Shown piece after piece: positions 6,947 through 33,507 of a stretch of 64,000 nucleotides of DNA (positions are counted from its first letter, which is position 1; the number at the start of each line of letters is the position of its first letter). Source of the DNA: Termitomyces sp. T153 (lineage: Eukaryota > Basidiomycota > Agaricomycetes > Agaricales > Lyophyllaceae); assembly GCA_018296165.2 (NCBI GenBank), contig JACKQL020000018.1:620001-684000 (forward strand), given 5' to 3'. The notes beneath the pieces are model-generated. The model worked only from the letters and a program-made list of their open reading frames with translations. It was not told where the DNA came from and did no database searches. The position numbers were made by a program, and so were the translations under genes.

Positions 6947-7189
6947 CAGTCTGATAAGTCAAAATAGTAATAACATGAAGTAAGTAATGTACCTTCAGTT
7001 CAGTAAATAGAACTGAGGGCTTCCTAATTGAGAAAGTAAATGTTATAGAGCAATTATGCATGTGGCTGCAAGGAACTGTATAGTAGCAATTGGGAGCTCA
7101 TCATATAGGGGACATAACACTCTGGATCCCAGAATGGAAGTAAGCCTGAGCCCAAGCAACCAGGGGGAAACACTGCTGCCAAAGCAATG

Positions 7190-7445
7190 AGTCTTCTCAT
7201 AACATTCCCCCAGACTCAGAGCTGTGGCTTGAGTCCTGGGAGACTGACTGGGTAGTCATGAGTAGACCAGGAGAGGGATTTAGTAAACAGGTTGGTGGGG
7301 TTTTCTGTGGATGGAATGTGCATAACTTTGATGTTGCCCTTCTAAACATGCTCTCAGGTGTAATGATGTCTGATGTCAATATGTTTTGCTCAAGAATGTC
7401 CTTTGGTGTATTGAGCAAGTGATATTGCAGGTGAGTTGTCAATGT
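7190..7445 (-). pseudogene. Ty1/copia RNase H fragment with stops
   Basis: The minus strand reads SPAISLAQYTKGHS, a stop, then AKHIDIRHHYT, then after two more stops KGNIKVMHIPSTENPTNLFT. This is the C-terminal end of a copia RNase H domain (the conserved KHIDIRHH and NPxxLFTKSL patterns). Stops fall where CGA would be expected, in line with loss of CG in this block. Nothing else of the element can be assigned on either side. Confidence 0.65.
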
Positions 7446-7509
7446 GGATGGGAGCAGGGAGGCTTTAAAGAAGATCTACCTTGAGGAGCCAGTTATACAT
7501 CCAGATAGC

Positions 7510-8705
7510 TGTCATGACCCATCCCCAGATCCCCAAACCTCCCTCACACACACTCCCAAATGCCCAGACCACCTGCCAACACCCTCTCAACTCACCATGA
7601 CCCTCTTTTACCCATGGTGCCCACCCCAGCTAACTCCAACACTTCCCCAGTGTCATGACCCACTCCCAGACCTCTGGACCTCTCCCCCTTCAACCCTGCC
7701 TCCATGGAGTACCCACCAATGCCCCCTTGACCTACCCCAATGTTCACCCACAGTGCCTGCCTTGGCTAACTTTGACACTTCTCCAGCAAACCCTAATAGC
7801 CCCCTGGCAAATCCCAATGCATCCCTGCAGGCCCCATCACTTCCCCTTCTCCTCCCAAGCCCCCAGGCTCCTCTGACATTCCCCCTGACCCTGGCACATG
7901 TTGCTGACTTGGTCTCTTGACCCCCTTGACCACTATGAAACTTCCCAATAACTATGGAGTGGACCATGTTTCCATCAATTCCCATCAGAATATCACTGTG
8001 GCCTGCCATCTGATCAGAACTGACACCCATTCAGACCTGTGTGGCTCTGATGAGCCCTGCCATCACACCCTTAGTCCTTGGAGAAGGTCCAGTAGTCAGT
8101 ATATAAGTTGTAGAGTAGTATCCCTTACTCTAGTCTTGATATTACCTGTGGCTACCAATATTTTTCTGTTATGTTTGTGTTCTGTTACATTTCCCAGTCT
8201 TATCTCTAGTCTTGAAGTCTCTTTTATCTATCTCATTTTTGTCTCTGTCTTGTCTTGACTCTGTCTTGTCTTGCCTGTCTCTATTTCCTTTATCATTGCC
8301 TAAGTTCTTTTCAGCCTTAATCCCATTATGAACTCCAATCATACAATTACAACTCCCAAACATTTATAACTAACTCTGGACCTTGCTCTATGCTTGGCCC
8401 TGGAATCTATCAACATCAACTGATCCCCCATCAATCTGCAGCCCCACTCTCATTACTTGCATAGCCTCTGCTTGCCCTACAATCTGTATATTTGTCTCCA
8501 GACTTGTACCTGAGTCTTCCCTCCAGCCCAACCTTTCTTTGTACCTTGTCTTGGGCTTTCCCAGACCAACTCTGGACTGGCTTGGACCATCCCCTCTAGC
8601 TTATTCTTGTAAGTATCTGAAGTCCAGACCCCTTCAGGACATCATGTCTGCCTAGTAAGGACTTGCCCAGTTAAGCTGAGCCCCCACAGTCAGCAGAACC
8701 TGACA
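7510..8705 (+). repeat. gypsy-type LTR (5' LTR), CpG-erased
   Basis: It begins TGTCATGACCC and ends AACCTGACA, giving inverted tips TGTCA/TGACA, and is 1,196 bases long. It is the same family as the CpG-rich solo LTR at 36206-37346: both share AGTCAGTATATAAGT with the following TCTAGTCTTGATATT, and both end in a CCCAGTnnAGCTGAGCCCCC..GTCAGCnGAACCTGACA pattern. TATATAA near 8099 is the likely promoter. No matching 5-base target duplication was found at the far end of the element. Confidence 0.75.
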
Positions 8706-8738
8706 TAATATCAAGACTCTCCCCTTACCCCATTCTCA

Positions 8739-10735
8739 ATGTCTGCATATGACCCTGTGTACAACCCCACCAGCTACCTAACTGATGTCTATAGTAGGCT
8801 GGTCCCTGAAAATCCCTATGCCCTGTTCTATTCAGTCCCACCTGCAGATTACTATGTTTCTTATCACTGGACCCCAGATTTGAACCCAGCCTTCTATGCC
8901 CCCTCCATCAGTCAGGGAGTACTCTCAGGCTGATGCTGCCCCCTAACATTCCCTGCTGATGGGACCTACCCCCACATGTACCCCAAAGGATTCCCTGGAG
9001 CACCCCCAGCCCTGCTCAACTCCATCTACCTTCCCCCAGTGCATTACTACCCCTACTTAATCCCAGCTGTGGCTCCAGTTCCTCCAGAACAACCAGATAA
9101 CTATTCCCCCTCTCAACTTCAATTCCCCACTCAAATTCTCTCTTCTCCTAGACAGCAATGAGTCAAAGCCTATGTTCAGCAGCACAACAAGGTCCTCTGC
9201 TCCCTCCACCTCTCTCCCATAGAGTTTGCAAGGCATGCTTGTGCCCTCCTCATCAGCTGAAGTTACTACAACACTTCAGGAACTCCAGAAGTCTGGGCCA
9301 ATTGCCTCCTTGATTTCCACAAGAGTTATCTACAGGGCACCCTCCCCAAAACCATGCAAGGTATCCTGGGAATTGATGCCAACCTCCAGAACAAGCTCTG
9401 TGCCCTAGTCAAAGAAATCCACACTAGCCCAAACCCCCACTAATTTGAGGACCTGTTGGACCCTGCCTGCTCCTTCCACATACAACAAGAGGAATTCACA
9501 CTGAAGTACAAGTAGAAGCTCCAGCCTCCATTTCCCATCAACAGGAGGAACTCAATGCCATGTCCAATGTCTTAAAGTTCCTCAACCCTGCTGGAGGCCT
9601 CTTTGACTAACCCACTGCTCACACCCTAGCCCTCTCTGCTTGCTTCCAGGCCAACTCCATTCCCAGTGCCTTCCACACTTGGGATCTACTCACTGAGCCC
9701 AAACCCTATACCCAGAGAGCTCCCCAGCCCCTTCCTGCCAACAATGACCTTGCCTGCAACTACACCCTCTCCTACATTGATGAGCCAGAAAAACTTGGCA
9801 GAGAACCTGGAGCTCCAGCCTCTCTTCTGGACAGGCCTCCCCACTTTGACCTCTGCACCCCCTGTGATAATGCACCTCCAAATGCACCCATGCTCTGCAA
9901 AAACATCCCAACCCCTTTGTGCCAACCCATGGGCCCTGGAGTGCCTCAACCCCCCTTTCCCAATACCCTTCCTCAACCCCTGCCAATTCCCTTAACCAAC
10001 TCACCAGCCACCAACAACAACTATGGACCACCAACCCCCAGAGGACTCCCTCCCCCTTGCTGGGCCCTGGGGCCCCCTCTGAGCAATGCTGGCCAACCCC
10101 CAGGTGGCAGACCTCCCAACAGCAGACCTCCAGGTGGATGGGGCCTGGCCATGGACAACTTCCCCCCTCAATGTGGCAATGGGAACAATTACTATTACTA
10201 CTACAATGCTAGACCCCTGCCCCAAAATCAAAACACCTAGGACAACACTTGCAATGCACTGGCTTGAGAAGGCAAACTTGACATTCTGGAATCCTTCACA
10301 GGCCATGACCCTTAAAAATGGAGAATCTTCCTGATGCAATGCCTCACTATGTTCCAAGCTAAGCCCATCACTTTTCAGCTCAAGAGCTCACAGGTTGCTT
10401 ATGCCACCTTGTATTTACAGGGCATTGTCTTTGATCACTATATGGCACTGCTCCAGTTTGATCCCAACAACCCCATGCTCTTCAACTGGCCCACTTTTAC
10501 CCAGGAATTCTCCAGTAACTTTGGTGTATTTGACACTGTAGTAGAAATGGAGGAAAACCTCTTCAAGTTCCAGATGTGTAACAACAAATGCTTCACCACC
10601 TTTATTGTCCAGTTTGAACAAGAAGCCTACAAAACAGGCTGGAATTACAATGCCCTCCAATTTGCCCTATGCCACACCCTCCCCCAATGCATCAAAGACA
10701 TCCTCTACCTCACACCCAGGCAAACTATATAAAAC
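8739..10735 (+). pseudogene. gypsy gag (broken)
   Basis: Pieces of a gag polyprotein. The first (8739-8933) is Tyr/Pro-rich. The middle (9666-10240) is Pro/Gly/Asn-rich. The best-kept part (10334-10735) reads FQAKPITFQLKSSQVAYATL onward and contains a WPTFTQEFSSNFG stretch, the helical retrotransposon gag capsid domain of Ty3/gypsy elements. Stops and frameshifts separate the pieces. Confidence 0.65.
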
Positions 10736-11139
10736 AGTTACAAGGCACTTGCCTCACAGGTTGATCAATGCTATTGGGAAGACCAGAGCAAAAACATAGC
10801 TCCTCAATCTACCTGGAATGCCTCCAGCAACACCAACTGGCAATCTGCAATCCCCAATGGCAACTGACCTCCACTCCCTGCAACCTCTGTGCCCTGTTTC
10901 CCCTCAGGATGAGTACTTACCAGTGCCAATCAATCCCTGAGACCCTGCCCACCTGCCTAACTCAACACTGCCAACCTCCACAAGGCTCTGGAACCACTGG
11001 ACACCAATTCTGACAATTTTCAGGACCCCAACAATGCTCTGGACTCCACTGAAGACCAGGAGGCCTTATGTGCAAACAAGATCCAGAACAGGCCCTGAAT
11101 TTATGTACCAGAGGAGACTCAGGAGAAACAACAGAAGGA

Positions 11140-13400
11140 GGGCACATGCATCTTATGTGGTGAGCAGGGACATTTCATTGGTAGCTTCCCTAAATTCCAG
11201 GTGATGGGATGTGCTGTGACTATCAGTTTACAGAAAACAACTCAATGGTTTAGATCATGAAGACACACTAAATTGTGGATTAGACACTGATGTCTTCTCT
11301 GCCCTCGCTGCAATCCTCTGTGCAATAGTACCCTCTCTGGACACCCTCCCAGCACATCTCCAATTGCAATCCTCCCACACCCTTCTTCTCCACACCAACT
11401 TCTCTTTCTCTGCTAGCTCCATCCCCACTCTGGTCAACAGCAGTGCCACCAACAAGTTCATTGATGAATCCCTGGTGGTGCTTTCTCCTCAAAACCTCTG
11501 ATGCCTTCCCACCCCTATCCTCCTCAAACTCTTTGACAGCAACCTGACCTCCACTCAAGACATAACTCATTGTGTGGAAAGACTATGATCTTTGCCAATA
11601 GATGATGACAGGACCTCCAGCTACTAGTCACCAAGCTACATGCCTCTGCCCCTGTTGTTCTAGGTTTCTCATGGCTTTGCACCACCAATTCCTGCATTGA
11701 CTGGCCCAGTCTGACCCTCCACCTCAGCCAGAATAGCCCAATCAACTTTAGACTAGTCTCCTTTGATGTCTCATCCTACTCCAAGGGCCCCAAAGACACA
11801 ACTGACATTCTCTGGACCCCTCCACAGCTCCATTCAAATTCAACACAATCATCCATTATCAACATCCAACTTGACAACTCCCTAACAGTCCTCCCCACTC
11901 TTGTTGACAGCAGAGCCTCTGGCACCTTTGTCAGTAACCAGCTTGATCTCCCTCATGACACCCTTGACAAACTTCTCAAGCTCCAACTCTTTGATGGAAG
12001 CCCCACCTCAACTGGAATCACTCAATACCACAACAGTGCCCTCATCCTCAGTAACAAACTAAGATTCCAAGCTGGCTCCTTGTTACCCAACTTCCAGAGT
12101 CAATCTTGATTGTGCTTGGACTTCCCTAGTTGCATGATGTCAGCCCCAACATCAAGTGGAAGGACCTCTCCATGCAGTTTCCAGGCTCCAAAGCAAGTCT
12201 TGCAGCTACCATTCCTCTCCACCTCCAGCCCACCTCAAACACTGATGTCCCCAACCTCAATTCCAGCAGCTCTAGAGCAACCCAAACCCTCTTGACCCTC
12301 AAGGATGACCAAGAAAGGGAGGAAAGCACACCTCTGCCCCTTGGACAAAACTCAATGGCTTCCTCCCAACATTTCTAAGAATCAATATGAAGGCCTGCAG
12401 TACCCTGACCAACAATATCAGACAACTCTGGATGCCCCCACCACAACTTCAGACTCTGCCACCACCACTCCAACACCTGCCCCCATTGATCCAGAACTTG
12501 ACATCAAAATCATTGGCACCATCCCCTTTGTATGCATTTTGCAAGACAGAACCCCCACCTACCAGCTTCAAATCATGCCAGCCCTACTAGAGGAACACCT
12601 ATGTGCAGGAACTACTCCACTGGAACAAAAGACAGGAACAAATCCTACACAGTAGTTCCCCCAGAGTATCATGAATTCATTGACATGTTCTCTGAAGGAA
12701 GCACAAAAAGAACTTCTCCCAAACTGCTCCTACAATCACAATATTGATCTCAAAGAAGGCACCTCCCCCCTTTGGCAAGATCTACAACATGTCCAGGATC
12801 AAACTCCAGGCCCTAAAAGACTACCTTGACAACATGCTTGGCAAAGGCTTTATATGCCCCTTAATCTCCACTGCTGATGCTCTGGTTCTGTTTGCCAAGA
12901 AGAAGGACAGGTCTCTCCAGCTCTGCATGGACTACTGGGGTCTCAACAAAGTCACAAAAAAAGAACTGGTATCCTCTTCCCTTGATCAAAGACCTTGTTG
13001 ACTGCCTCCACAGCACCAAGCTCTACACTAAAATAGACCTCCACTCTGGCTATAACAATGTCTGGATTGCTCCAGGGCATAAATAGAAGACCATCTTCCA
13101 CACCCACTACAGCCTTTTTGAGTATCTTGTAATGCCCTTTGGAATGACTAACTCCCCTACCACCTTCTAGTACTTCATGAACAACATCTTCCATGACATG
13201 AATGATGTTTTTGTTATTGTGTATCTGAACAACATTCTGATCTACTCAAACTCACTGGAGGAACATCCAGAGCATGTCTGCTGCATTTTAGAACAACTCT
13301 GGGAATACCACCTCCACACCAAACCCAAGAAATGCTCCTTCCACACTGTGGAGGTCAAATACCTTGGAGTTAATGTCACCCTGGACAGAATATGCATGGA
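11140..13400 (+). pseudogene. gypsy pol remnant: zinc knuckle, two protease-like modules, reverse transcriptase
   Basis: At about 11147 a zinc knuckle reads CILCGEQGHFIGSF; the last cysteine position holds Phe. At about 11425 a protease-like active site reads TLVNSSATNKFID, with Asn in place of the catalytic Asp, followed by a VVLGFSWL motif (about 11675). A second protease-like module follows (TLVDSRASGTFVSNQLDLPH, about 11900, Asp kept) and ends in LIVLGLP (about 12110). The reverse transcriptase (about 12745-13400) shows FAKKKDRSLQLCMDYWGLNK, YTKIDLHSGYNNVWIAPGH and MPFGMTNSPTTF, each interrupted by stops or frame changes. Its catalytic box reads YLNNIL instead of YLDDIL. It is dead. Confidence 0.8.
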
Positions 13401-13539
13401 CCCTGAACCATTCAGTGGTAATCCCCCCTCAGCATTTGCCATGCTGATTATGAATGAACAAGGAATCCTCCACCAAATCAGAAACACACCCCCAGACCCC
13501 TTCTTCACCCAGCACAACCCCTGCAACAACTCTGCCAAC

Positions 13540-13760
13540 AAGCCAGCAGTTGACCAACTCTTCATGCTATCTCCAGACTATCAACTTCTACTCTGGGAAG
13601 GACATATTTATGCTCTGGACCACAAGTCACCTCAACATACTCTGGCAGCATCACAATTACAAAATCTGAGGACACCTAAGAATTTGTAAGACTCTCCAGC
13701 TCATCTCCTGAACTTTGGCCCAAGGGCAGCCAGAGAATCAGCACAATGCTTACTATAGAC
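13540..13760 (+). pseudogene. gypsy integrase N-terminal zinc-binding fragment
   Basis: Reads EGHIYALDHKSPQH then ILWQHHNYKI, a stop, and GHLRICKTLQLIS. This matches the H2C2 zinc-binding head of gypsy integrases (HHD..GH.G..KT). It follows the reverse transcriptase without the RNase H region. The integrase core is not seen. Confidence 0.5.
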
Positions 13761-14510
13761 CACCATTCTCAGACAACTGGGCCCCACCTCCCTGGAGCTT
13801 GACCCTGCCCCACCAGGTATGCTCTTGCCCCCCAATTTGAAATCCAGCCCCTGCATTGGGAACTTGCTGGACCCAACCTCAAACATCTCCAATGAGCTCT
13901 TAGGGAGGACCACATGACCCTTCTCCTTGACTACTGGTGCTGGAACCACTGAGTTGTCTTCTGCCAACTCATTGTCCTCATCCCCTTCCTCCAGCACAAA
14001 CTCTAAGAACTCTCTAGGGATGTGGGCCCACAGTCCAACCCAATGACAGGTGGATGATTATGACCTTTATCCAAGCCTGTGAGGCAGTAATCCCCCAACT
14101 GGAGCCCACCAGCACCCTCCTGACTCCTGCCCCACCCTTGAACTCTCCACCTACCCCACTCTGCCCAAAACAAACATCAGAGGTGCCAGTTGTGGCACTT
14201 GTCACATACATTGTGGGCCCAGCACAAGCCCAGCTCCAGAGGGGAGGACATACAGTTGTTCCCATGGAGCATGCAATCCTGACACTGAGACAGATTAGTA
14301 GAGCCCTGAGATGCAAGGATATGCTTACCATAGCATTGACCATGCATCACTCCCTAGTGAGGATCATGGCAGACATGGCTGGGAGCAAAACACACAAACC
14401 AATCACTGGAGGCCATGGCAACCTTATCAATCCATGACAGCAATCTCTGGAGAACCCATGGCTGACCCCCCACACATGCCTCAAGAATCTTGGCATTGAA
14501 GGGGTGGTAC
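13761..14510. other. unassigned 3' internal part of the gypsy element
   Basis: Open frames on both strands (for example plus strand 14054-14437) are products of C-rich, CG-free DNA and show no recognisable domain. The end carries the purine tract next to the following LTR. Confidence 0.4.
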
Positions 14511-15120
14511 TGTTATGACCCTCCATGGTCCTTGGCCCCTTGCCCAGTTCCCTGACTACTTTTCCTGAATGACCTGCCCAATCTCTGCCATCAATCCCAC
14601 CATAATAGCCCACTATCAACCCATCAATTCTGCATCAACAACCTTTTCCATTTATATAGGTGAAACCCCCAGACTTACTCCGCAGAAACCCCACATCCAT
14701 CCCACACTTGTCTGAGACCTCCAGTGGTGCTGCCAACCTTGTTTTGGCACTGCCACCCTGCTCCCAGTCTTGGAACCCAGCTTCAACCTCAGTGCCATGC
14801 CCCATACTCACATCCAACCCCTAAACTACTCCAAGGACCTCAAAAGCTCTACCATAAGTACCATACCACTTTAGTCAGTACCTTACAATATTGCCTATTT
14901 TCTATGTATGTTTCCTAGCCTCAGTTTCCCAGCACTATCTGTTTCTCAGCCTGATTCATTTCTCAGCATTTATCCCATATTGACCTATTACTCCAAAATT
15001 TGTTAACCCTAATCTCCAACAAAACTCCAGCTTGATTCCTAAGTCCTCCAACCTCAATCAGCAACTAGTGGGTTGCTTGCTCTACAGTGAGAGAACCCCT
15101 GGAGTCAGTTGGACCTAACA
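14511..15120 (+). repeat. second LTR-like sequence, unlike the 5' LTR
   Basis: It begins TGTTATGACCC after a purine-rich stretch and ends GACCTAACA, with inverted tips TGTTA/TAACA, about 610 bases. The first bases and the final GAGTCAGTTGGACCTAACA resemble the ends of the 7510-8705 LTR, but the body does not align by eye and is half as long. It is either a diverged, deleted 3' LTR or a different but related LTR family. Confidence 0.5.
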
Positions 15121-18194: not shown

Positions 18195-18814
18195 ATGAAA
18201 TTCGCCCTCGCATTTGTTTCTGCTCTCATTGTGATTTTCCAGACCTCCGCTCTGGTCCTCAGCAGGGACAACACGACTACGAACGCTGAAGTCATCCCTC
18301 GTTCTTTACCACCATAGATGCGGTACTTAAATGTTTCCAGGACGAAGCTTCAGCGGTGGCGGCGGCATGCAGCGATCCAAGGTCTACTCTCCCCCTCTGG
18401 CGAGCCTGGAGGGGTGCAAGTACAGATCACTTTTACACGCTCAATGCTGATGAAATGCAAAATGCCGTAACGAGATTCGGATACCAAGGAGAGGGTATCA
18501 CAGGGTACCTTTTTACTGTCTCTCAGACAGGCAATGTTCCTTTATATCGGCTGTATCATCCGGGGATGCAGGATCATTTCTACACCACTAGCGCACCAGA
18601 GAGGGACAATGCCATTCGCTTTTCTGGGTATACATATGAAGGAATTGCGGGGTTTTGTTACCCCGACACATCGTGTGGCGGACGTCCTTTGTATCGCTCG
18701 TGGAATCCTTCTGCGAGTGACCATTTCTATACTATGTCTGAGGCCGAAAAGAACAATGCACAAGCAGGAGGATGGAGCTATGAAGGGGTCGCTTGTTATG
18801 TGTACCCTTACTGA
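18195..18814 (+). CDS. small secreted protein with DUF5648-like repeats
   Basis: Exon 1 (18195-18290) encodes a signal peptide: MKFALAFVSALIVIFQTSAL then a short linker. A 50-base intron (18291-18340, acceptor TTTCCAG) leads to exon 2, giving about 189 residues. The mature part has three tandem repeats of about 45 residues with the pattern PLYR.W.....DHFYT....E...A....GY..EGI. First repeat: LWRAWRGASTDHFYTLNADE; second: YRLYHPGMQDHFYTTSAPER; third: YRSWNPSASDHFYTMSEAEK. This matches the DUF5648 repeat found in many secreted mushroom proteins, often alone or beside hydrolases; the biochemical role is unknown. The donor GTCATC is not the usual GTRNGT, so the exon 1 edge is slightly uncertain, but the signal peptide and phase fit. 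Confidence 0.8.
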
Positions 18815-20228: not shown

Positions 20229-20310
20229 TTAACAAATAGAGAGAATAAGATCATCGAGAGACGAACTAGGGCCCAAAACGGAGGGGTTCGGTGTTGAAGA
20301 TGGGCACTGC
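20229..20310 (-). pseudogene. C2H2 zinc-finger gene, C-terminal tail cut off by the copia insertion
   Basis: If the copia element and one copy of its ACTGC target are removed, the reading frame coming from 25002 continues here in phase. It reads a Ser/Pro-rich tail (CPSSTPNPSVLGPSSSLDDL) and ends LILSIC with TAA at 20229-20231. This part keeps its CG dinucleotides, for example near 20255, 20262, 20279 and 20289, unlike the rest of the gene. The host gene therefore originally ran off this tail and was split by the element. Confidence 0.6.
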
Positions 20311-20571
20311 TGACGAACGGACGTCTTGGATGTGCGCGAGGAAGGTCGTAGTCAGCGCGGGAGGCGATGGTAAAATCTTAACTGGAGTTCAACGAGAACG
20401 GTTTAATGTATTAGATATATAAGGACACAATACAATTTACTATGCTCACCTGGAGTTCAACGAGAACGGTTGAACTCCATGTGGGCGATCGCAGTACGAA
20501 AAACTCAAATAGTTTGTAACTGTTAGTATTGGGGGTCTAGATGCAATGACGATCGAGAAATACTTTCGTCA
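20311..20571 (-). repeat. copia LTR, unmutated copy (3' LTR)
   Basis: 261 bases, TGACGAA...TTCGTCA, with 19 CG dinucleotides. It contains ATATATAAGG near 20416 and a repeated phrase GGAGTTCAACGAGAACGGTT (twice, 69 bases apart). It is the control for the mutated copy at 24736-24996. Confidence 0.95.
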
Positions 20572-20594
20572 CTCCCACTTGACGAGATCTTCAA

Positions 20595-23500
20595 CTACCC
20601 ATCACTGGTGACTCCCAATGCGTCGCGGAATTTCTCGAAAGCTTCACGCGGGAGGGATTTCGTGAATATGTCGGCAAGCATGTCCTTAGTAGAACAATAA
20701 CGAAGTTCGATTTCTTTGGTTTCATCTCGTTCGCGTAAGAAATGGTGCCGAATGTCGATATGCTTGGCGCGTGAGTGCGCGACAGGGTTTCGTGCCAGCG
20801 CTATGCAACCTTGGTTGTCCGCGTGGATGACTGTTGCGTGCAGTTGGGGGTACCCAAGGTCCTCAAGGAGGACGCGAAGCCAAATTGCCTCTTTGGTGGC
20901 GTTTGACGCTGCCATGTATTCGGCTTCGACAGTTGACAGCGCAACGGTGGGTTGTTTCTTGGCTGACCACGATATTGATCCCCCTGCTACATTGGATATG
21001 AATCCACCAATCGAGCGACGCGAGTCGATGTCTTGTGCCCAGTTAGAGTCGGTTCAACCGACAAGGTCGACTTCTTTACTCCCACTCCTTCCAAACACTA
21101 ATGCCATGTCGGCAGTGCCCCTAAGGTAGCGTAGGATGCGCTTTGCAGCCTCCAGGTGGGGTCTTCCGGGGTTGCCGCCGTACTGAGAGATGATTCCGAT
21201 GGAGTGTTGGATATCCGGTCGCGTCTGAGTGGCATACAGCAGTGCGCCAACAATTTTGAGGTATTTTAAACCATTTGCGAATTTTGAATATTCCAAGCGT
21301 TCATTGTCATTTTTAGGTGACTGAGAGGTAGATAGGACTTGCTTGGTGGCTAAGGGGGTGGATACAGGTGTACATTTGGACATGCTGAATTGCGCGAGGA
21401 CTTGGTGGATATAGGCCGTCTGGTTCAGGGAAATGGTGTGTAGTTGTCTGTTCCGTTTAACTTGAATGCCTAAAATGTATCTTAGCTCTCCTCAGTCAGA
21501 GACCTTGAACTCGGCAGACAGTTCAGCTTTGAACTTCTGCAGGGTTGCAAGATTCTTCGCGGTGAGGGCCATATTGTTGACATACACCAAAACTAACATT
21601 ACAATCACACCATCTTTCTTCAGGATGTAAAGGCAGTCATCTGCCTGGCTCTTTTCAAAGCCAGCTTTTGACATGACTTCATTGAGCTTGGTCTTCCACT
21701 GTTGTCCTGCCTGTTTCAGCCTATAGAGGGGCTTCTTGAGCTTCCAGTAGCTGCCAGTTTTCCCTTCAATGGTCACTCCCTCAGGTATTGTCATATATAG
21801 TTCTTCCTCAAGGTCTCTGCAAAGGTAAGCTGCAACCACATTGACTTGATGTAGTTCCCAGTCCTTGCAGGTGATGATGGATAGCAGGGTTCATAAAGTA
21901 GTAAACTTGGCAATGGAGGAGAATGTTTCCATGAAGTCTTGGCCATAAACTTGCAAGAAGCCCTTCACAACAATTTGAGCCTTGTACTTTGTGATGCCTC
22001 CATTGCCATCATGTTCTACATGAAACACAATGCAGCTTCCTACAGCTTTTTGGCCTTCAGGTAGTGTTGGGACCCACTCAAAAGTGCCGGTTTTCTGTAG
22101 GGTTTTGTACTCGGTTGCAATTGCCTCCTCCCACTGCCTTGAGCTAGTGGAGGATGCTGCTTCACGGTAGGTTTTTGGCTCTGTCCCTTCAAATGCAACA
22201 TATGCTCTGTGTTGGTTGCTGTTCTTCTCTTCTGATGTTTTGTCATCTACAGGCATAATGCCGTAGCATTTGACTTGGTGATGGGTGTGCATGGGGTGTT
22301 CTCTCAGAGGTAAGTTGAACCATTTTGAGGCCTTTGGTGCTGAGGCTGTTGGTGTTGGTGTGGGCTCAGGAGCTGCTGGGACTGTTTCTTGGGTTGATGC
22401 TTTGGTGGACTTTGGCACAGGGTTGGCAGGGGTAGCTGCTGTGACAGGAGTGGTATTGGTGGTTTCTAGCAGGGCTAGCATTGCCAACTCCTCTGCAGAT
22501 GGTGGGCTGCCATGCATTTCAAATTCTGCAAGGTCCCCAGGGCTGTTGTCCTCAACAAAACATATGTCCCTAGCAGTTATTAGTTTTCCAGTTTTGACAT
22601 CCTTGAGCCTGTAACCTTTGGTTTCATTGGTCCACCAGCCAAGCATGCAGCATTTCACTGATGTAACTCCCAGTTTGCCCCCATGGAGCTTTTTGGGAAT
22701 ATTGGCATATGCAATGGATCCAAATATTTGCAGGTGAGAGATGTTGAGCTTTTGACCTGTCCAGGCTTCCTAGGGTACAATACCATTTAGAGCAAATGTT
22801 GGTGAGCAACTTTGAATATGGACTACATACATGAATGCCTTGCTCCAGTAGTGCAGGTCCATTCTGGCAGAATGCAGCATGCAGCATACCATTTCAAAGA
22901 GTATGGCAATAGCTCTTTCAGCTATCCCATTTTGCTTGGGAGTGTAGGGCATGGTTGTTTCATGAAGGACTCCATTGCATTGGCAAAAGTCGGTGAGCAA
23001 CTCCTTCAGGCACTCCATCCAATGTCTGAACATATTTTCTTCAGCCTTAGCCCTGATTGTCTCTCAAGCATCACAATGATGTTTTGCAGTGCAGCACCAG
23101 CCTTGCTCTTTTGCTTCAACAGCTGACCAATTGTGAAGCAAGAGCTAACTTTGATGATGACCAAGGTGTATCACATCCCTGTCCATGTCTCAATAGACAT
23201 CAGACCCATGAGATTGACTACAACAAGGCCCATCTTCTCATAAGTGGTGGTGCTCACATAGGGGAAGGGTTGGCAATGTGATTTGCCAAGGGTGCAGCCC
23301 TTGCAAATGTGGTCATATGTGGTGGGGGATGATATGGTAAGGCCAGTTACCATGTCCTTCCATTGCATATCCCTGATTGTGACTCCCACTTGCAACATAA
23401 GCAGACTCAGTTTGGATTGCAATGCAGGCAATATGATACAAGGTACCTGTGCTACCCAATAATGATGCATGGAATAACTCTGTCCCACCCTTCAACATGA

Positions 23501-24749
23501 CTAGTCCAATATCAGGTCCCTCTGTATAACTCCTGTAAGTTGTGCCCTGATGTTGTAGTGTCCTAAAGCTAACAAGGTTGGCAGTGATCTTGGGAACATG
23601 GAGAACCCTGGTCAAAGTGACAGTCTTGGGGCCACTTGGCAACTGCATTTGGAATTTGACAGTACCATGCCCTGCAATGGGTATGTTGTGGGCATCTCCC
23701 ACTAAAATCCAGTTGTTGTCTGAACTGGTGGTGATAGGCATGTATGTAACAAAGAAGGATGGATCAAAAAACATGTGTGATGTCATGCCAGAGTTGAGGA
23801 GCACATCACCAGCACAATCTAACCTTCCAGCCATATATACCTGACCAGGTTCATGACAAAGTTCTTGGAGATCAGTGATAGTGAGGTTGGCAACTCCTGA
23901 ACCTTTGCTAGTTTTCTTTTTCTTCTCATCCTCAATGTGCTTGGGGCATTTGTTGATCCAGTGACCAAGTGATTTGCAATAGTGGCATTTGTCATCAGCC
24001 TTAGGCTTTTGGCCTTTCTTCTTGCCATCAGACTTCTTGGAGGCAAGCAGAGCAGTTTCACTCTCTTTCCCACAGAATTGGCAGTTGTATTCAGCCTGGA
24101 GTTGGGTTAACACATCTTTGGAGGTGAGCATTTCCATTCCAAACAGTTGGATTTTGATGAGATCCCAAGATGACATGTGTGGCAATGATAGAATGAGTGC
24201 GTGAGCAACATAGATGTTGGGGAGCTCCTTGCTAGCCACAGTAATCTTGTTCTTGATGTTGAGCATTGCAGCAATGTGGTCAGCCATGCTGGTGCTGTCA
24301 GCATACTTCCAGGTGTACAGCTCCTTGAAGTAGTAATGTACATTGATTTTTTGCTGATTCATGATGTGTATAGCCTTCCAACCATCCCATATAGCCTTGG
24401 CAGTAAGCTTATCTGCTACATGGGGCCACTGGGAGCTCTCAGCCACAGATTTCATCAATCCCTGTACTGCCTGATCCTGCAATGTCCACTCAAGGTATTC
24501 CTTCTTCTCAGCTCTCCAGGTGGCTTCATCTGGTCCTTCAGGCTTGGTACTGGATGGTTTCGAGGGCAGTTCTTTGTTGCCAGTGACAATGAGCCAGAGA
24601 TAGCAAGATTGCAGTGTGGCTTTCATATGTTCAGCCCACAGTGCATAGTTCTTGCCATTGAGTTTCAGAAATTTGAATGCATCTCCAGAACTGGAGGATG
24701 CAGCATTGAGTAGACCATTAGCAGGGCCCATAACCTGACAAACAGACAT
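20595..24749 (-). pseudogene. copia gag-pol polyprotein (broken)
   Basis: From the minus-strand start at 24749, gag runs to a zinc knuckle CHYCKSLGHWINKC (about 23950-23990, all Cys/His kept). The protease site reads LLNSGMTSHM (about 23790), with Asn where the catalytic Asp of LLDSGATSHM is expected. Integrase pieces (YTPKQNGIAERAI, about 22930) follow. The reverse transcriptase (about 22650-21490) includes WKLKKPLYRLKQAGQQW, and its catalytic box is YVNNM instead of YVDDM. RNase H (21480-20595) reads THSRAKHIDIRHH-like and TKSLPREAFEKF and looks intact. Stops and lost residues cluster in the CG-depleted part; the RNase H part, which retains CG, is open over long stretches. Confidence 0.9.
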
Positions 24750-24996
24750 CTTGGATGTGTGTGAGGAAGGTCACAGTCAGCATGGGAGGTGATGGTAAAA
24801 TCTTAACTGGAGTTCAACAAGAATGGTTTAATGTATTAGATATATAAGGACACAATACAATTTACTATGCTCACCTGGAGTTCAACAAGAATGGTTGAAC
24901 TCCATGTGGGTGATTGCAGTACAAAAAACTCAAATAGTTTGTAACTGTTAGTATTGGGGGTCTAGATGCAATGACAATCAAGAAATACTTTTGTCA
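24736..24996 (-). repeat. copia LTR, CpG-erased copy (5' LTR)
   Basis: Same length as 20311-20571 and alignable without gaps. All 19 CG of the other copy are lost here: nine read TG and ten read CA on the plus strand, none TA. Only one other difference was seen (T at 20349 against C here). Confidence 0.95.
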
Positions 24997-25001
24997 ACTG
25001 C

Positions 25002-25882
25002 AAAGAATACTTTGATGGAGAGGATGATGGTGGAAGGTAAGGTTCAGAGTAAGTGACTCAAGGAAATGCCCTATGATTGCAGAGCAAGGGAAAGGCCTCA
25101 TTGAAGGACTCATATTTGGCATTTGATCCAAGGGGGAAAATTGTGTGGCATCCAGGGTGTCCCTTATGTCTTAAAACCTCACTACTCTGAAATTGGGAGA
25201 AGGGATCCAAAGCACCCTCATACATGGGTTGTTCAGAAAGCTTTGCACATGGAAAAACCAAGACCCTAGATTGGTCAGTGCAAGAGGTGGGTTTTTCTTC
25301 ACAAAGGATCTCTGATGGAGATGGAATGCCTGAGTTTAAGTCTGGGTTCTGATATGAGGAAGGATATCTCATTCCAACTCTGTCACTGGTGAGATTTGCC
25401 TTTCCCTTTAATTTCTTTGAGATGTAATCATGTTTCCTCTTCCTGTGTCAGAGAAGTGAGCTGGGATCAGCTGTTTTGTAATTGCAGTCAGGGCACTGGA
25501 ATGGTTTTTCTCTCCAGTGCTGATGAGGATGTAAGTTGTTGAAAAGCTGGAAAAAAGAATGAACTCACTGTTGGTGCATATGGATGGTCAGGTTTGATTT
25601 CTGCAATGACTTATAGGAACAACCATTGTAGGGGCAGTTATGCATCCTACAACATAACATCAATGTTGTAAGTACAATCATAATATATTGAACCAATTGG
25701 AATAACATACAGAGAACTTTTGTCCTCATGATGAAGCTTTGCATGGTGAGGAATGTCCCTTTTGAGGCTTATGACAATGCCACAGACATCACATGGCTCA
25801 GTATTGACATCACACTAAGAAATGTACATCAATTGTAATCAGAACTCAGGGGATTGTATGGTGTCACAGCTTGGCAAGGCAT
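25002..25882 (-). pseudogene. C2H2 zinc-finger transcription factor-like gene, mutated and interrupted
   Basis: A TATAAAAG (minus strand, 25967-25974) precedes a possible ATG at 25882. The first finger-like segment reads EPCDVCGIVISLKRDIPHHAKLHHED (partly 25755-25830), the second CPYNGCSYKSLQKSNLTIHM (about 25580-25650), the third FQCPDCNYKTADPSSLL, then a stop, then HRKRKH (about 25430-25510). The stop is TGA exactly where an Arg CGA would keep the finger open. A Ser/Pro-rich tail follows, with another CGA-type TGA at 25058-25060, and then the copia insertion. It is a host-type DNA-binding protein family common in mushrooms; the target is unknown. The gene is dead through CG loss and insertion. 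Confidence 0.7.
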
Positions 25883-28800
25883 ATACCACCTTGTAAACTA
25901 GATGAAGGTTCAGTGAAGCAGGAATTGAAAATAGGGAGAATGGGTGAGAGTACCAGCAAAACCCTACTTTTATAGTCACATCAGACCATAAGAAATACCA
26001 GGCATGTCTTTATGCTTTGAAAGATGGAAGAACAAAGCATCCAAATAGGAGAGCAGACCAAAGCAACAATTAAAGTCCAAGCACAAGAAGAGCCAAGGGC
26101 CAAGGCAAAAGCAAGAGAATCACACTTTGCTCCACATCATTAATATTATAACAATACTTATCATCTTGTAAATAATTACATATGATGGACATGGCATAAG
26201 TGCTGGGATCCCTGTTCTAGTACACTATAGTTGGACCATTGACCCAGTGAGTTCATTTTTTGCAATCAGATGCACTGAGACTGCCATCATGTAGTCCAAA
26301 TAATTCAGAAGTTTGACCCAAGCTGATGACCACACATGTGCCACGACTTAGATCCTGCTTGACTGACCATTAAGTTTCAATATCTGTTGCCATTGTGGCC
26401 TCTTCACCTTCCCTTTCATCCCACATTCTCCATGGGCAATATAGGCCATTTACACACCCACCTACTTACACATTTATGCTATTATTAATTACCTCTTGCT
26501 ATTGCAACAGAGAGTCCTCACTATAGAAAGTCCTCACTATAGAGAATCTTGAACACATCAAGTTCCACTTCTTACTGCCATGGGGTATGGGTGGTATGCA
26601 CATGACTGAGTGCCACTCAGGAACAGAAGTTAATATTGTACCACATGATCTTCATCTCTCCATCATCCATACATGGAAACAGGTAGAATCCTAACTTCTT
26701 TCTATTCATATCCTTCTATCTGCTCCTTCTAGCATGGTGGTATGGGCACCACCATAATTAATTATATGCTAAGCCAATATTGACTACTGTAATGGAGGCT
26801 CTGCTGACTTCACTGAAACAATTATTGTCATTGGAGTATGGGAGGTAAGTGTAAGATGTATGTCTCCACTCATGGGTGTTCAGAAAATGGAATGGGACCA
26901 CACTATGTCTTGAGACTATATAGCATGAGTACAAGCAGATACAAGGAATGGAAGGAAAAGAGAAGCAAGCACAAAGGATGTGGGCAGCACATGTATGTGA
27001 AAGGGAATAAGGTTATGTCCAAATATGTGTACTGTAAGTGTCTGTAAATCTGCTAAGTAGCTACAGTTGGCCATATCAAAATCCTGCTTGTTGATCTACC
27101 TCAGACTCCAGTTCTGTTTCTTCTATCCACTCCCAGTGATAACACCAGCACTCAGCATCCTGACTTTCAATTTTACAATATCTCACATTTTCTCAAAAAT
27201 GAAAGTATATATCATTTGTCTGGGTTTTTTCATCAATACTGAAAAATTGTTCTTCTAGTTCTTATCCATTGCAGTTTCTTTCATCCTTGCTGGCTTTGTC
27301 ATTGCCTCCAAACATGTTGATGTGAAATGTAAGTTTGATGCCATCAATTGATCAGATCAATTAATCAAACTTTCTTTTCACAGTTGTTTGAGGGCTTAGT
27401 TACATGCAAACTCCCACTTAGAATAGGAATAGTATTGATAGTTTATGATTTTGTCCAGTGGTTGAGATGGTCTCACATAGAAGAATGGGCACAATAGTAT
27501 GATAACTGATACCAAACCAACTAATACTTGTAAGCCCAAGAGAACTGCTCCCTGGGGTGTCTCCAAGCCGTGGTAACTAGCTTGCTTGCTTTTCCCTTTG
27601 AAATTCTTCCCCTTTTATAGCTTGCTGCTCATGCACAGACCAGTGTGCTCTCTGTGTGTGCCCATCATCTGCACTGTGTGGTTTTTCTTGGCCTTGCACC
27701 CTCATTGGTTGAGTAGGCTGAGATGATGCATTGCTCAGTGTGATGCTAGTTCCACATCCTTCCATATGCTGATAAGACCCAACTATTGCTGAGCATTGTT
27801 ACTGACATTGTGGACTATCTTATCTGGGCAGCACTGGATGTGGACACAGCATGAGTATGTATAAGTCATGTGACTCCATCATGTGGGGTCTAGCCCTAAG
27901 GTCTGGAACAATGTAGCCATTGCATAGGAGCCTAGCAACCACAAGACTTCTGGATCACAAGTCTCATCATGTGGAATCTAGCCTGTGATCTAGAACAATA
28001 AGGTTGAGACCTTCTTTAGCAATGAACACTAGCAACATTACCTGGCAACAACAATAGTCATTCTCAAAAACAGATATATTTAAATGGCCATGTGACTCCT
28101 TACTGATCATTTCTCTTGTCTTGCTTACAAACATACCTGAACAGCATCTACACTTCAGATATTGACATTAGGTATGCTCTTGTATTATTACTGACATTTA
28201 TTATGTATCTTGTTGACATCACATACAAATACCTGGTTACCATACTGACATATAGTATGTTTCATGGACACTTTGGCAGATGCCATTGCTAGCAGTGACT
28301 ATATTTCCTTTCTGAATACTATATTTAAGAACAGTACAAATACTGCCTGTACATAGAGACAAGAACAACAAAGTGTACCATTCCCCCTCAGTAGCCCTCA
28401 GCTTACCAGCTTCAGATTTCTTTTCTGTCTACTCTCATCATTGTTAGGCTTAGTGACAAGCCTCAGCAACCTTGTATTCAATTTAGTGTGGGTACCAACT
28501 ATGAGTACTCTATAGTGTCTTTGGTCTCTGCAATGCTAGCAACTGTGGCTAGCAACTAGTTTGCATTCATCCCTCAGTTTTTACCAATGTCACTACTCCC
28601 CTTTTTTCCCCATCTGTTTCTTGTTGCTAGGTCTTTAACAACCTTAGCAAAAAATTCATGTCCTCCCCTTTTATCTATCCTTCCTATTCTTAGCAACTTT
28701 GCCTTGCTTCCATCCCTACCACCACCTTTACTCCCTATTGCTTAGTTTCCCTTTCTTAGTGATTTATCACTCTCTCCTTAGTAACTTCTCCTAGCAACTC

Positions 28801-29308
28801 TTTTGTCTCCAACCCTTTTTCCCTTCATTACCCAGCAACTTAGCTATCCTATGTTACCATCTAGCAATAGTGACCTTTCCCACTTGTACCTTCACTTCAT
28901 TCCTATCCCTTTTATTGCTCTAGTTCTCTGGGACATTTACCAACTTGCCCTTACCACTTCTCATTGCCAGCTACCCTATCTTGTTGCCAGTGTTTAGGTT
29001 TCTTTTGTTTTCTTGCATGGCAGCTAAGTGGCATAGGAACACATCAATGCCTTTTCCCCTTCTCAAAAACTCCCCTAGCAGTCTGCACATGATTTGTTAC
29101 AGTTGATAGCTTGGTTTCAGGTGGCCTGGCACAGGAAACATTGTGTTATCAAGGTGTGGAGGGCAGTATCATTGCAATGGGCACTGATGGCTGTTCTCAG
29201 TGTTGGTTAGGTCTCTAGCCAGGGTGCTGAGCACAGCCATTGATTAGCCATCAGCACATGATCATACCCAGTTCTCTTCAGCATTACAACTCTGCTGGCA
29301 TTGTTTGT
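25883..29308. other. CpG-erased, gene-poor region
   Basis: No intact gene. Frames such as 26838-27047 (plus) show no domain. A small duplication, AGAAAGTCCTCACTAT, lies around 26517-26545. The tract 27840-28480 has LTR-like looks (TATTTAAGAACAG near 28322 then CTCAGCTTACC and CAAGCCTCAGC), but its ends could not be fixed. Long T/C-rich stretches occur at 28560-29060. Confidence 0.4.
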
Positions 29309-29475
29309 GGTGCATGTTTTGGGCTCTTTGGCTTTCTTTACTAGGTATGTACCCAATGCCTACAGTTTTTGGCATTTCTAAAGCTTACAGTTTTCAGCTT
29401 TCTTTGATATATTTGGGGTTTTTTCCACCTGAGAGTATTCTGTCCTGTCTCATGATATGAGACAGGCATATCACC
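29309..29475 (+). repeat. dispersed 167-base repeat, CpG-erased copy
   Basis: Aligns over its whole length with 35521-35690 (shared TACCCAATGCCTACAGTTTT and CATTTCTAAAGCTTACAGTT). The CG sites of that copy are TG or CA here, and several other substitutions exist. It includes the palindrome CCTGTCTCA..TGAGACAGG. Confidence 0.85.
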
Positions 29476-29599
29476 TCCTCCACACCATTTTACTGACTGC
29501 CCTCAGTCAGGCCCATGCATCCAAATGCCATCACAGTCTGATCACCTTAAAATCCTCAACAAAAGCAATTTTCTTTCTTAACAAAAATAATTTTCTTCC

Positions 29600-31113
29600 C
29601 CACCCTTGATTACACCTGCCTTCTCACAAAGACATGCTCAAAACTGCCTTCCATGCTGCAGCCTTGGCATTAAACCACCCCATTCTGACTGCCCCTCAAT
29701 CATCTAGACAAAGCCCTTGGCTCCTCTGACATCAATAAAACCAGTGACTATCTCAACAAAATCCAAGTTTTGCCTGAGGTAAGATTTTTTGCTGACTCTG
29801 CATGTCCTATCTTATTGACCTACAACTGATAGGTCTTTTAGGTTCTTTTCTGGTCAATAACTACAAGCAAGCAATTAAGCTGATAAATGGCTTACCTGCT
29901 CTAAAGAAGCAAATGAAGGACCAGGGGGTCATGGGCATTGAAACTTTCAAAGAATGGCTGACAGAGGAGAAGGCATATCTTTAAGGACTATTTTGGGAAC
30001 CTTTACAAGAGACACTACAAATGTAGCACTATCAGAAGTTAGTGAATCTTGAGGCAAGCCAGTTTGTCACACCTTCCTTTCATTGTGTGCTGTCCTAATA
30101 TTTGTCTTAGGAAGGCTCTGGATGATGTGCAATCCAAATGGCTTGTGATGACCCCCAACAATCGCAGTGCACAAGACTATACACAGTCAATCAAAACAGA
30201 ATGTTGTCATGCACTGGAAAACCATGAGAAGGACCTCAAAGTTGTCCAAGGCCTCAAAACAAAACTCAGCATCATGACACAATGGACTCATACAAACCCC
30301 AAGTGGAGAGCAGCAGTGGAGATAGCAGCTAGGCATTGCTACCAGTGATGTCTTGATCATTTAGAAGAGCTGGTTGTTTCAAGGATGTTTGAACTAACAA
30401 AGATGAACATGTCATGAATGGGTAAGTTAAAAGCTTTGTTATTCAGACAACATAAAATCATGTTTAGTAAACAGGGTATAAGTTGCAGAAGCATATTGGT
30501 AAGGCCCTCAAGGCTCAATTGCAGGCCATACAAAATGCACTCAACAGGTACAATGTTGCAGCCCACACCCTTCCCCACCATGTCCTGAGCTTGCATGGGA
30601 TCCTGTGGTTGAATATGCATTTTTGGCCAACTTTGACTTGTTAGCAGACACATGTGAAGATGTGCATGAACACCCTTGGGCAATGCCTGCTGCTCAAATC
30701 ATAATGGATGAATATTTCAAGATCAAGCATGCTAGAGAAGAGATAGACTGGTTAAATGTGGAAATTAGGATGAAGAAGCCTATCTGCAGAAGCAGGAGAA
30801 GATTGTTGCCACCCAGAATGCAGCTATTGCACACCAGATTGCCTGGCAGTGGAAACACCTTCATCAATTCAACATCCTCCACATGCAGTGCCTGCAGAAG
30901 CTTGCATTTCTACCAGGATTCACAGGATCTCTTGTTCCCAGTGTCCAAATTCAGGCTGGAAAAAGAAGAGAAGATGACATGTTGGTTGACAAGGCTGATG
31001 TCCAACAAGATGTTGTCGACAAAGATGACAATGATGACAATGATGACAACAATGACAATGCTCTACTGGCTGAACAAGTACATAGGGTTATTCAAGTTTC
31101 TTCAGATATATAA
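29600..31113 (+). pseudogene. KDZ-type transposon, C-terminal coding remnant
   Basis: Several frame-broken pieces in order match the helical C-terminal half of KDZ transposon proteins: EPLQETLQM..YQKLVNLEAS (about 29995-30050), KALDDVQSKWLVMTPNNRSA (30110), ENHEKDLKVVQGLKTKLSIM (30220), LDHLEELVVSRMFELTKMNM (30350), TGYKLQKHIGKALKAQLQAI (30475), VEYAFLANFDLLADTCEDVH (30608), YFKIKHAREEIDWLNVEIR (30715), AIAHQIAWQWKH (30825) and LAFLPGFTGSLVPSVQIQ (30903). Stops and shifts lie between. The catalytic N-terminal half is not found upstream. Confidence 0.75.
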
Positions 31114-31270
31114 TTTAGGTCTTCAGATATATAATTTAGGTCCTTTCTCTGCTTATATTGGCCATAGTATATTATAATCTTTCTGTATACATTGGGAACC
31201 ATCTTGCTCTGATTTCTTGCAACTATTTGATGAATTTTGAATGAGGATGTGAGCTCATTGTCACAAACAA

Positions 31271-31574
31271 CGAGCAAGGGGCGGGATCAATTGTTGGCGT
31301 GATCTCAGGCGCCCCCGACAAATACCCGACACAACATCAGTGATATGTCAGCGACCGACATTGCCGATGGCCGTTGACGACGTGCCTGATGGCCAGGAAC
31401 CACCGGCAATAGCCTCGGACAATACCCGGTCAACATTTTTGAGGACAAGTCCTACATTAGAGCTGTACTATTGCAGGAAGGGGGCAGCTACATGAATCAT
31501 GACGAATTAGGCGTGGAATATGACATATATTCCATGCCTAATTCGGCTGAATTGGTGGTAGCTACAGGTGGAAC
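31271..31574. other. intergenic stretch with normal CG content
   Basis: CG returns abruptly at 31271. No gene recognised. The main feature is the hairpin at 31503-31545. Confidence 0.5.
31503..31545. repeat. long hairpin: 19-base arms, 5-base loop
   Basis: CGAATTAGGCGTGGAATAT (31503-31521), loop GACAT, then ATATTCCATGCCTAATTCG (31527-31545). The arms are complementary except at one position, where the right arm has TG in place of CG. It ends 30 bases before the left arm of the inverted duplication begins. Confidence 0.85.
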
Positions 31575-32652
31575 TTTAAGTAAGTACCCAGTCTTCAAGA
31601 CGCTCTCAACATGACTCCTTGAGAATATATTGAGCATCTGGAATTGGAAAGCCACAACTTGCACGCTATGACTTGAGGCTGTCGCCGCATCAAGAATTAT
31701 TTATACTTGCATATTTAGTGAATTGTTCGGTCGTTTAATCCCTCGATGTGCCTCTATGAACCACTAATTGGCATATTCAAGCTTGAATTTACTACGAGGT
31801 ACTAGGTACTCAAGGAATCGTTTTCCTGTACAGACACCTGCTTTTCGGGATATAGGAAACATACATATAAAGTATGGTAGCCATCCGCACAAATCCGCAA
31901 GAGCACACGCAAAACCGACAGGAGTAGATATGGTCATGTCTCGTTTACTCTCCGAATGGGAGCTTGTAGAGCACACAAGACAATGGAAGGTGATCATGTG
32001 GCGTGAAATTGGCAGTTACGTTGTGGGGCCTAATAACGTAAAGAACCGTGAAGTACCATGAGCACCTAGATTCGCTATCGTGTTCATTGCCGTGAGAAGT
32101 TAATTGACATTGCAACAGATCTTTCAGCAATAAGATACAAAAAGGCCAGCTTCTCAAGGTCGGCACGAAACAGTGTGAGCATCCAGAGCCCTACAGTAAA
32201 TCAAGAACCAAACACAGCATTGAGAGGGCGAAAAGTGTGCAGTGCGTGCGATGAAAACCAGGCTGTGTTTTGTGGACAAGCATCATGGTATCCGCAGATT
32301 TTCTCTCCTCAACCACAAAAGGAAAAAACTAACGACACGTGTTGATCAAGATCCAAATTCTGCAGACGGAATCACAAGCTCGAAAGTGACTCACCCCAGA
32401 TTTATCCAGCACGAATGGTTGATACTTTCCAGAAATGAAACGTGGGCGTCGAAAGCTGTAAGATGTAGATAGATGTATATGCGGGACTGAGAATAAGTAC
32501 AGAGGGTTCAAAAAATAGATCGGATGGAGTTAGATTGAGATATGCATGTTTCAATGCGATGAGAGAACGAGATGGGACTATAACGGAAGCAATGGGCACG
32601 AAAGCAATGAACGCGTAAGAACGAAAGCATGGAGATCAGTAGGGAGACTTGA
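31575..32652. other. non-coding outer part of the left arm
   Basis: About 1.1 kb, very similar to 45752-46844 reversed. No supported gene; the small frames are mirrored in the other arm because the DNA is duplicated. It should hold the 3' end of the membrane-protein transcript. Confidence 0.5.
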
Positions 32653-33507
32653 TCAAGGACGGGCAGCGGTGTTATTGCTAGCGGCTGGCATACCAGACTC
32701 GAGGTCTAGAGAGGGTTTATCTTGCTTCGTCGGATGTCGCCATTGCAGAAGGAAAGCTAAAAGACAGGTATTCCAATGAACATGCTTTTCGACGGTTTTT
32801 GTGGTACTGAAAGCAGTCGAGCTCGAATCAGCTATCCCACCCATGTCATGCTGAGTATCGCTATTATCAGGCAGGTCCGGAACGTCGTCACATGTCCCTT
32901 GAGGAAAATGTTGAGCGGAGCGATACGTCTCACACAATCTAGATGGGCCACCTGAGTTATTGCTAGTCAACAGAGAGGACGACCGGTTGAGATCGGTAGG
33001 GAGCCTTCGCGCTTTTCGCTGCTCTTCACTTGCAGTCTAAGATAGATCAAAGCGCTGCCAGGATGCCGAAGATTTGACTATTACTCACTGCAATTGTTGC
33101 TTGCAAGTCGATAGCCTGTCTTATACTGATTTGTATGGCATTTGAAAGCCCATGATATGCAGCGATCACTTCTTGAAGAAGGCTGGTACATTGATGAGCA
33201 CTATCACGGAGACTGATAGAGTTCTCTTCCAACCTGTAAGTTCCTGTCAAGAGCAATGCATAGTTTAGAAGGGGAAAGCGCACTCTTGTAATCTAGTCTC
33301 AAAATCGTCAGTGATTGAAACTGGAACGAGGCCTTCATCTTTGACTTGCTGGTAGAGGTCCCTCGTCTCCAAAAGAATCTTTTGAAAGACCTTCATCCGC
33401 GCTCTTGGAAGAAGGTTGTAGCAAAAAGCAAATGTTGTGACCAGGCCACCGACAATGGTGAGTGCACCGACATAGTAATTCAAGATCGTAGTTGAATGTT
33501 GATCCAT
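32653..33507 (-). CDS. hypothetical membrane protein, left copy
   Basis: Three exons: 33507-about 33285, about 33230-33075 and about 33035-32653. It starts MDQHSTTILNYYVGALTIVG with one hydrophobic segment (about residues 8-30, ending in FCYNLLPRARMKVFQ), then a helical region (RDSAHQCTSLLQEVIAAYHG) that may form a coiled coil. The Ser/Asp-rich C-terminus ends in HPTKQDKPSLDLESGMPAAS. No known domain is recognised. It is transcribed away from the kinase-like gene at 33770, with 262 bases between the starts, and has a paralogue in the other arm (44785-45751). The N-terminal half is far less like its partner than the C-terminal 40 residues. A role as a membrane partner of the kinase-like protein is only an inference from the conserved pairing. 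Confidence 0.55.

Follow-up and report, generated by a model that had tools for sequence, protein, structure and literature searches.

CpG content of the two long terminal repeats of a copia element

How do the two long terminal repeats (LTRs) of a single retrotransposon come to differ at every CpG dinucleotide and almost nowhere else? This question is raised by a copia element at positions 20311 to 24996 of a 64,000-nucleotide stretch of the Termitomyces sp. T153 genome (contig JACKQL020000018.1, positions 620,001 to 684,000 of the forward strand), which is referred to here as the window and whose numbering is used throughout. The element harbors a copia reverse transcriptase (RVT_2) and a copia gag domain, is bounded by two LTRs and is bordered by a 5-bp target-site duplication, and is on these grounds assigned to the copia LTR retrotransposons.

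Both LTRs are 261 bases in length and align without gaps, with 20 differences, a number that had been obtained by eye in an earlier note on this DNA and was borne out by computed alignment with counts by dinucleotide. Nineteen of these differences coincide with the 19 CGs of the left LTR, which read TG (9 sites) or CA (10 sites) in the right LTR, where no CG is retained and no site reads TA; the sole difference outside CpG is a T/C at 20349/24774. The pair is 92% identical overall, with a change at only 1 of 221 non-CpG sites, and the chance that 19 random changes would all land in the 38 CG bases of the 261 is, by our arithmetic, approximately 1e-16. Because the duplication (ACTGC) is perfect on both sides of the element, both LTRs are attributed to one insertion, as the earlier note had claimed, and two separate insertions are ruled out. 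The further claim of that note, that CpG-specific mutation had followed insertion, on both strands about equally and far faster than other mutation, is supported by the placement of 19 of the 20 differences at CpG. The left LTR is nearest to its own partner, from which it differs at one non-CpG site, compared with at least four for the four LTRs of the related copies C7 and C14.

No allelic copy of the left flank was detected when the assembly was searched; the only counterpart is a diverged, element-free paralogous site on contig 27, in which the matches to both window flanks lie approximately 60 bases apart. Comparison of the window copy with that at L015:2836-7556 revealed mosaic non-CpG divergence, of the kind that recombination between two element lineages would leave, amounting to approximately 2% at the left end, the right LTR and parts of gag, and to 9 to 32% between approximately 20.8 and 23.3 kb.

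The edge of a CpG-decayed block lies inside the element

The CpG content of the window is near expectation outside two nearly CG-free blocks (Table 1). The block at 21.6 to 31.3 kb has its left boundary inside the copia element, a feature which goes beyond the earlier note, as does the continuation of nearly CG-free DNA to about position 31270. The CG count per 250 bases stands at 18 to 20 over 20251-21250, directly before the fall recorded in Table 1. Measured against the C7 copy, the first 600 bases retain all 48 of the CpG sites inferred to be ancestral; the fall begins at approximately 20911, the next four 200-base bins (to 21710) keeping 11/14, 11/18, 4/10 and 3/8 sites, followed by 7/125; taken together with a fifth bin of 0/4, these four bins yield a trend with P 0.002. 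The term saturating, which had been applied to the process as a whole, is apt for the right LTR, which lies within the decayed block, and not for the left LTR, which is situated in an unaffected zone. To the left of the element, a DUF5648 gene is located at 18290-18814. We propose that a single copia insertion took place at the margin of a repeat block which carries, or once carried, CpG methylation, a reading which we consider likely to be correct.

Table 1. Coordinates of the copia element, its flanks and the CpG-decayed blocks within the window
Feature	Position	Strand	Remarks
Left target-site duplication	20306..20310		ACTGC, 5 bp
Left LTR (3′ LTR of the minus-strand element)	20311..20571	-	19/19 CGs kept
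Internal end of element	20572..21250	-	CG density matching left LTR (18-19 per 250 bases)
Copia reverse transcriptase, RVT_2	21351..22067 (C18:641351-642067)	-	2 internal TGA stops
Decayed portion of element	21751..24735	-	7 CGs left
Open reading frame with gag and Pol_BBD	23313..24749	-	478 aa
Right LTR (5′ LTR of the element)	24736..24996	-	0/19 CGs kept
Right target-site duplication	24997..25001		ACTGC, 5 bp
Left flank, 68% to element-free paralogous site on contig 27	20011..20277		CG kept in window at 7/9 comparable sites
Right flank, 81% to same contig 27 site	25001..26258		22 TG/CA sites; no CG vs TG, CA or CG in two-copy alignment
Edge zone by raw CG count	21251..21750		6 then 3 CGs per 250 bases, then 0
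CpG-decayed block straddled by the element	21561..31270		11 CGs
End of dispersed repeat, right edge of block	31271..31570		18 CGs kept; contig 132 copy TG or CA at 15/18
Second CpG-decayed block	7001..15000		2 CGs in 8 kb

A comparable landscape was encountered elsewhere in the genome, where sampled regions (seven of them at arbitrary places) alternate between stretches with roughly 15 to 45 CGs per 500 bases and stretches with hardly any. Within the window, the stretch 8001-14000, inside the first CpG-free block, displays a strongly negative GC skew of -0.31 to -0.38 and a stronger over-representation of TG than of CA. The block straddled by the element contains a repeat of approximately 1.28 kb (27770-29047), nearly CpG-free at this site, for which, as a lower bound, more than 30 long or partial genome matches are present among the 40 of 1407 candidates that were scored. 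Beyond the right edge of the block, an inverted duplication of approximately 4 kb (31571-35522 and 42691-46848) exhibits 94% identity over its outer 1.3 kb and 76% over the rest, and both copies possess a normal CpG content. Matches to RVT_1, located on the minus strand approximately 5.3 kb from the contig start, are shared by C10, C112, C289, C241, C109 and C306; these six may represent a non-LTR element that associates with ends, or else repeats in which the assembly broke off.

One-sided LTR pairs and the neighboring DNA

To place the window pair in context, 17 LTR pairs were compared, among which three belong to the window copia family, five were picked for long open frames, a choice biased toward young copies, and nine were obtained via LTR similarity searches, single hits being left out. 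Where both copies read TG or CA at a site, an ancestral CpG was inferred, and the number of double losses was taken to be twice that of the TG/CA sites. Target duplications of 5 bp were recognized in 14 of the 17 pairs; that of C9, missed by the automatic check, was identified by eye, and none was established for C26b and C2. No LTR pair was found in L040 or in one 8.5-kb RVT_1 region examined (L059). L023, L028 and L029, as well as window positions 59095/62254, contain short direct repeats whose LTR status was not established; these were left unused, as was the window repeat 29309-29475 versus 35523-35689, in which a CG is involved in 4 of the 11 differences.

Three of the 17 pairs are one-sided, with losses in the left and right LTR, respectively, of 0 and 19 (window), 17 and 0 (C24), and 7 and 0 (C8). 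In all three edge elements, CpG-rich DNA adjoins the LTR that kept its CGs, whereas DNA with few or no CGs adjoins the LTR that lost them, and partly decayed stretches sit at the edge in C24 and C8. The observation that no site became TA, made in the earlier note, applies to the window LTR pair and not to these two elements, in which CG/TA was recorded at 1/7 sites of C8 (L041/L042) and 1/17 sites of C24 (L062), both strands having changed at one site. Because a decayed LTR and its intact partner share one sequence, the fate of an LTR depends on its place.

An alternative history, in which a fully decayed element had its left end later replaced from an undecayed copy by gene conversion or ectopic recombination, would be in keeping with the mosaic nature of the family (non-CpG divergence between the window copy and C7 shifts sharply along the element) and with the fairly steep drop in raw CG count at 21250-21750. 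Nevertheless, such replacement is very improbable in view of the intact target duplication, the closer affinity of the left LTR to its own partner than to the C7 and C14 LTRs, and the part-decayed edge stretches of C24 and C8; moreover, conversion does not predict that the LTR on the CpG-rich side would be the one kept in three of three edge elements.

CpG loss increases with the age of the insertion

The remaining 14 pairs, none of which lies on a boundary, are not significantly one-sided. Across these pairs, CpG loss is correlated with non-CpG divergence (Spearman 0.93), a relationship which extends to all 17 pairs when each edge element is represented by its decayed LTR (0.84). Loss amounts to 0 to 8% in five young pairs, 15 and 18% in two, 60 to 71% in three and 95 to 100% in four, such that five of the 14 are intermediate (15 to 71%). 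Because such intermediate states exist, and in line with the tracking of age, a gradual clock is favored over a burst. The earlier note had envisaged a distinct RIP-like (repeat-induced point mutation) or methylation-deamination mechanism; the methylation-deamination option is retained here, but not the distinct saturating mechanism, as loss ranges from 0 to 100% in step with divergence.

At the 19 sites defined by the window left LTR, the LTRs of C7 and C14 have lost 36/38 and 38/38 CpGs, respectively, and the two LTRs of one such element often read TG and CA at the same site, from which it follows that these losses occurred independently and after insertion. The TG/CA outcomes did not cluster significantly into runs by strand (P 0.22, or 0.11 when pooled, the lowest value for any single LTR being 0.057). 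Within the RVT_2 matches listed, 150 TGA, 40 TAG and 25 TAA stops were encountered, in an uncontrolled count.

The five young elements retain nearly all of their LTR CGs, including C22, C43 and C14b, which lie between nearly CpG-free flanks (for C43 and C14b, one of the two flanks was covered over only approximately 200 bases); CpG loss therefore lags insertion. In young C33 and C56, whose flanks are unequal, all three losses occur in the LTR on the poorer side, a number too small to test.

Cytosine methyltransferase genes and a proposed mechanism

The earlier note had suggested that a cytosine methyltransferase be sought in the genome, and a search with PF00145 returned four matches in three loci (C37, C121 and C4), from exon pieces. 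The C37 methylase, adjoined by an SNF2 domain, yielded a single PDB match, 7r76 (named DNA repair protein Rad8; E 1.7e-81), which we take to be DNMT5 of Cryptococcus. The methylases of C121 and C4 match DNMT1, with a DNMT1-RFD domain on the same strand in C121. As judged from these similarities, the genome is predicted to hold two DNMT1-like genes and one DNMT5-like gene. No RID-type (Masc1) gene was identified among the four PF00145 matches, all of which were assigned to DNMT5 or DNMT1, though single exons may have been missed. In a table within a review (PMC7862722), four Agaricomycotina are credited with two DNMT1/Masc2 and one DNMT5, RID being absent.

The most likely cause of the CpG loss is methylation of CpGs in repeat blocks followed by deamination of 5-methylcytosine. 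DNMT1- and DNMT5-type enzymes would keep the CpGs of a block methylated, and methylated cytosines on either strand would change to thymine, with independent timing at each site, producing TG or CA; decay at a site would halt once its CpG had gone. The end of the element near the CpG-rich, gene-bearing flank would remain unmethylated, its CpGs changing at the ordinary slow rate, and the LTR pair would therefore record the position of a methylation boundary. Both the presence of methylation and the cause of the block's ending next to the CpG-rich flank are inferred here. Methylation coupled with slow deamination explains the confinement of change to CpG, the TG and CA outcomes in about equal number on the two strands, the independent outcomes in the LTRs of C7, the lag after insertion and the dependence of loss on age (with rates that differ between families), and CpG methyltransferase genes are present. 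Another proposal, that of an enzyme-driven CpG decay, rapid enough to remove 19 of 19 CpGs in the time taken for a single change at 221 other sites, and halted within transposons through a signal which neighboring gene chromatin emits, appears unlikely; if true, LTR pairs would represent a readable clock and a ruler of the heterochromatin edge.

Rate of decay and points against the proposed reading

CpG sites decay approximately 126 times as fast as other sites (79 to 224) in 10 pairs, a ratio which omits the nearly or fully decayed C7, C14, C26a and C26b, and 251 times as fast (178 to 355) when these are included, i.e., in all 14 nonboundary pairs; C24 and C8 entered no pooled rate fit.

Several findings weigh against a methylation edge followed by gradual decay. 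The window right LTR, with 19/19 CpGs lost and 1/221 non-CpG changes, has decayed too fast for the ratio of the 10 pairs (P approximately 0.0008 at a ratio of 126, 0.008 at 200 and 0.08 at 400), the lower bound of its own ratio being approximately 560. High ratios are found for C7 (447) and C14 (at least 251) as well, and a ratio of their own improves the fit by 7.4 (likelihood ratio, 1 df). At the window edge, a logistic curve beats a two-level step only slightly (67.5 versus 70.4), and at the C24 edge it is not better than a step (95.0 versus 90.4). C7 is 9 to 21% diverged outside CpG across the edge, so that the early graded fall may reflect older divergence. The flanks of C9 are unequal (12 CGs in 501 bases on the left, 2 in 501 on the right), yet its LTR losses are even (2 and 3). 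Finally, the LTR pairs do not constitute a random sample. The excess speed at the window LTR may be explained by differences in methylation between families, by chance or by selection of this pair for its extremeness; a faster process in some blocks is possible, and in this respect the window family, being faster than ten other pairs, leans toward the earlier note.

It is this speed, together with the nearly or fully complete loss in C7 and C14, that speaks for a RIP-like premeiotic process, CpG specific in basidiomycetes, which would have mutated a recognized repeat in one or a few sexual cycles, leaving a boundary inside the element by chance; CpG changes in Ganoderma sinense repeats have, furthermore, been named RIP (PMC4457147). 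Such a process is nonetheless improbable. Across the 14 nonboundary pairs, loss rises by degrees with age, and strand runs are not significant. The outer 1.3 kb of the inverted duplication (31571-32849 versus 45549-46848), 94% identical and of uncertain age, keeps most of its CGs, 49 sites being CG in both copies and 11 in a single copy; because this duplication is largely spared and because identical LTRs of one element have met opposite fates, repetition alone is not the trigger. The RVT_1 region L059 is likewise very CG rich (37 to 57 per 500 bases), though one further place of equal score and eight at 145.7 bits are on the list of RVT_1 matches. The four PF00145 matches provide no RID-type gene, though exons may have escaped the search.

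The mammalian CpG mutation excess is roughly ten- to fortyfold. The ratios of 126 to 251, and of above 560 for the window LTR, exceed this, and would be accommodated by enzymatic deamination, in which the CpGs of repeat blocks are attacked throughout life by a deaminase or by a methyltransferase able to deaminate. This, too, we regard as having little chance of being correct, as a strand choice without runs does not suggest a processive enzyme and as a low background mutation rate would yield the same ratio.

Comparison with known systems

CpG-biased C-to-T change is established in basidiomycetes (PMC4352252, PMC4457147, PMC6980582, PMC4014442, PMC5870257, PMC8063080), and in the mushroom Marasmius oreades repeats are highly CpG methylated (PMC9674265). 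In the works cited here, CpG loss is demonstrated on whole families or genomes, with disagreement as to whether it should be called RIP. LTR pairs with opposite CpG fates were not found described in a limited search of titles and abstract openings. The decay process is already known in kind, and it is the record of an edge inside an element which is unusually clear. Paired LTRs separate age from CpG loss within single insertions, and favor gradual decay; edge-straddling elements fix where a putatively methylated domain stopped, namely, inside a transposon. CpG decay also distorts LTR-based dating, as is evident from the 92% identity of the window pair with a single non-CpG change.

RIP of Neurospora (PMC4352252, PMC7862722) likewise consists of C-to-T changes in repeats, but its preference for CpA, its homology trigger and its premeiotic burst are not seen here: changes occur at CpG, duplication is not the trigger and five of 14 pairs are intermediate, although the window family itself is fast. 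A closer likeness is provided by the CpG-only signature in three basidiomycetes with a class IIA DNMT1 (Masc2) and no RID (Amselem et al. 2015; PMC4352252). The Termitomyces genome differs from these in its predicted complement of two DNMT1-like genes and one DNMT5-like gene. The three species with the CpG signature are reportedly members of the Pucciniomycotina. Ganoderma sinense (PMC4457147) is, like Termitomyces, a mushroom-type basidiomycete with CpG transitions in its repeats, and almost all of its affected elements are methylated; unlike here, the process was termed RIP by its authors, and the part of that source drawn upon contains no age test or boundary. In Austropuccinia psidii (PMC8063080), transposon CpG loss increases with age, as in the present pairs, and is attributed to methylation and deamination, the Gypsy and Copia elements being without classic RIP indices. 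The two studies differ in what was measured, since families were assessed there by consensus identity, whereas the evidence presented here is derived from the LTR pairs of single insertions and from a boundary which lies inside one element.

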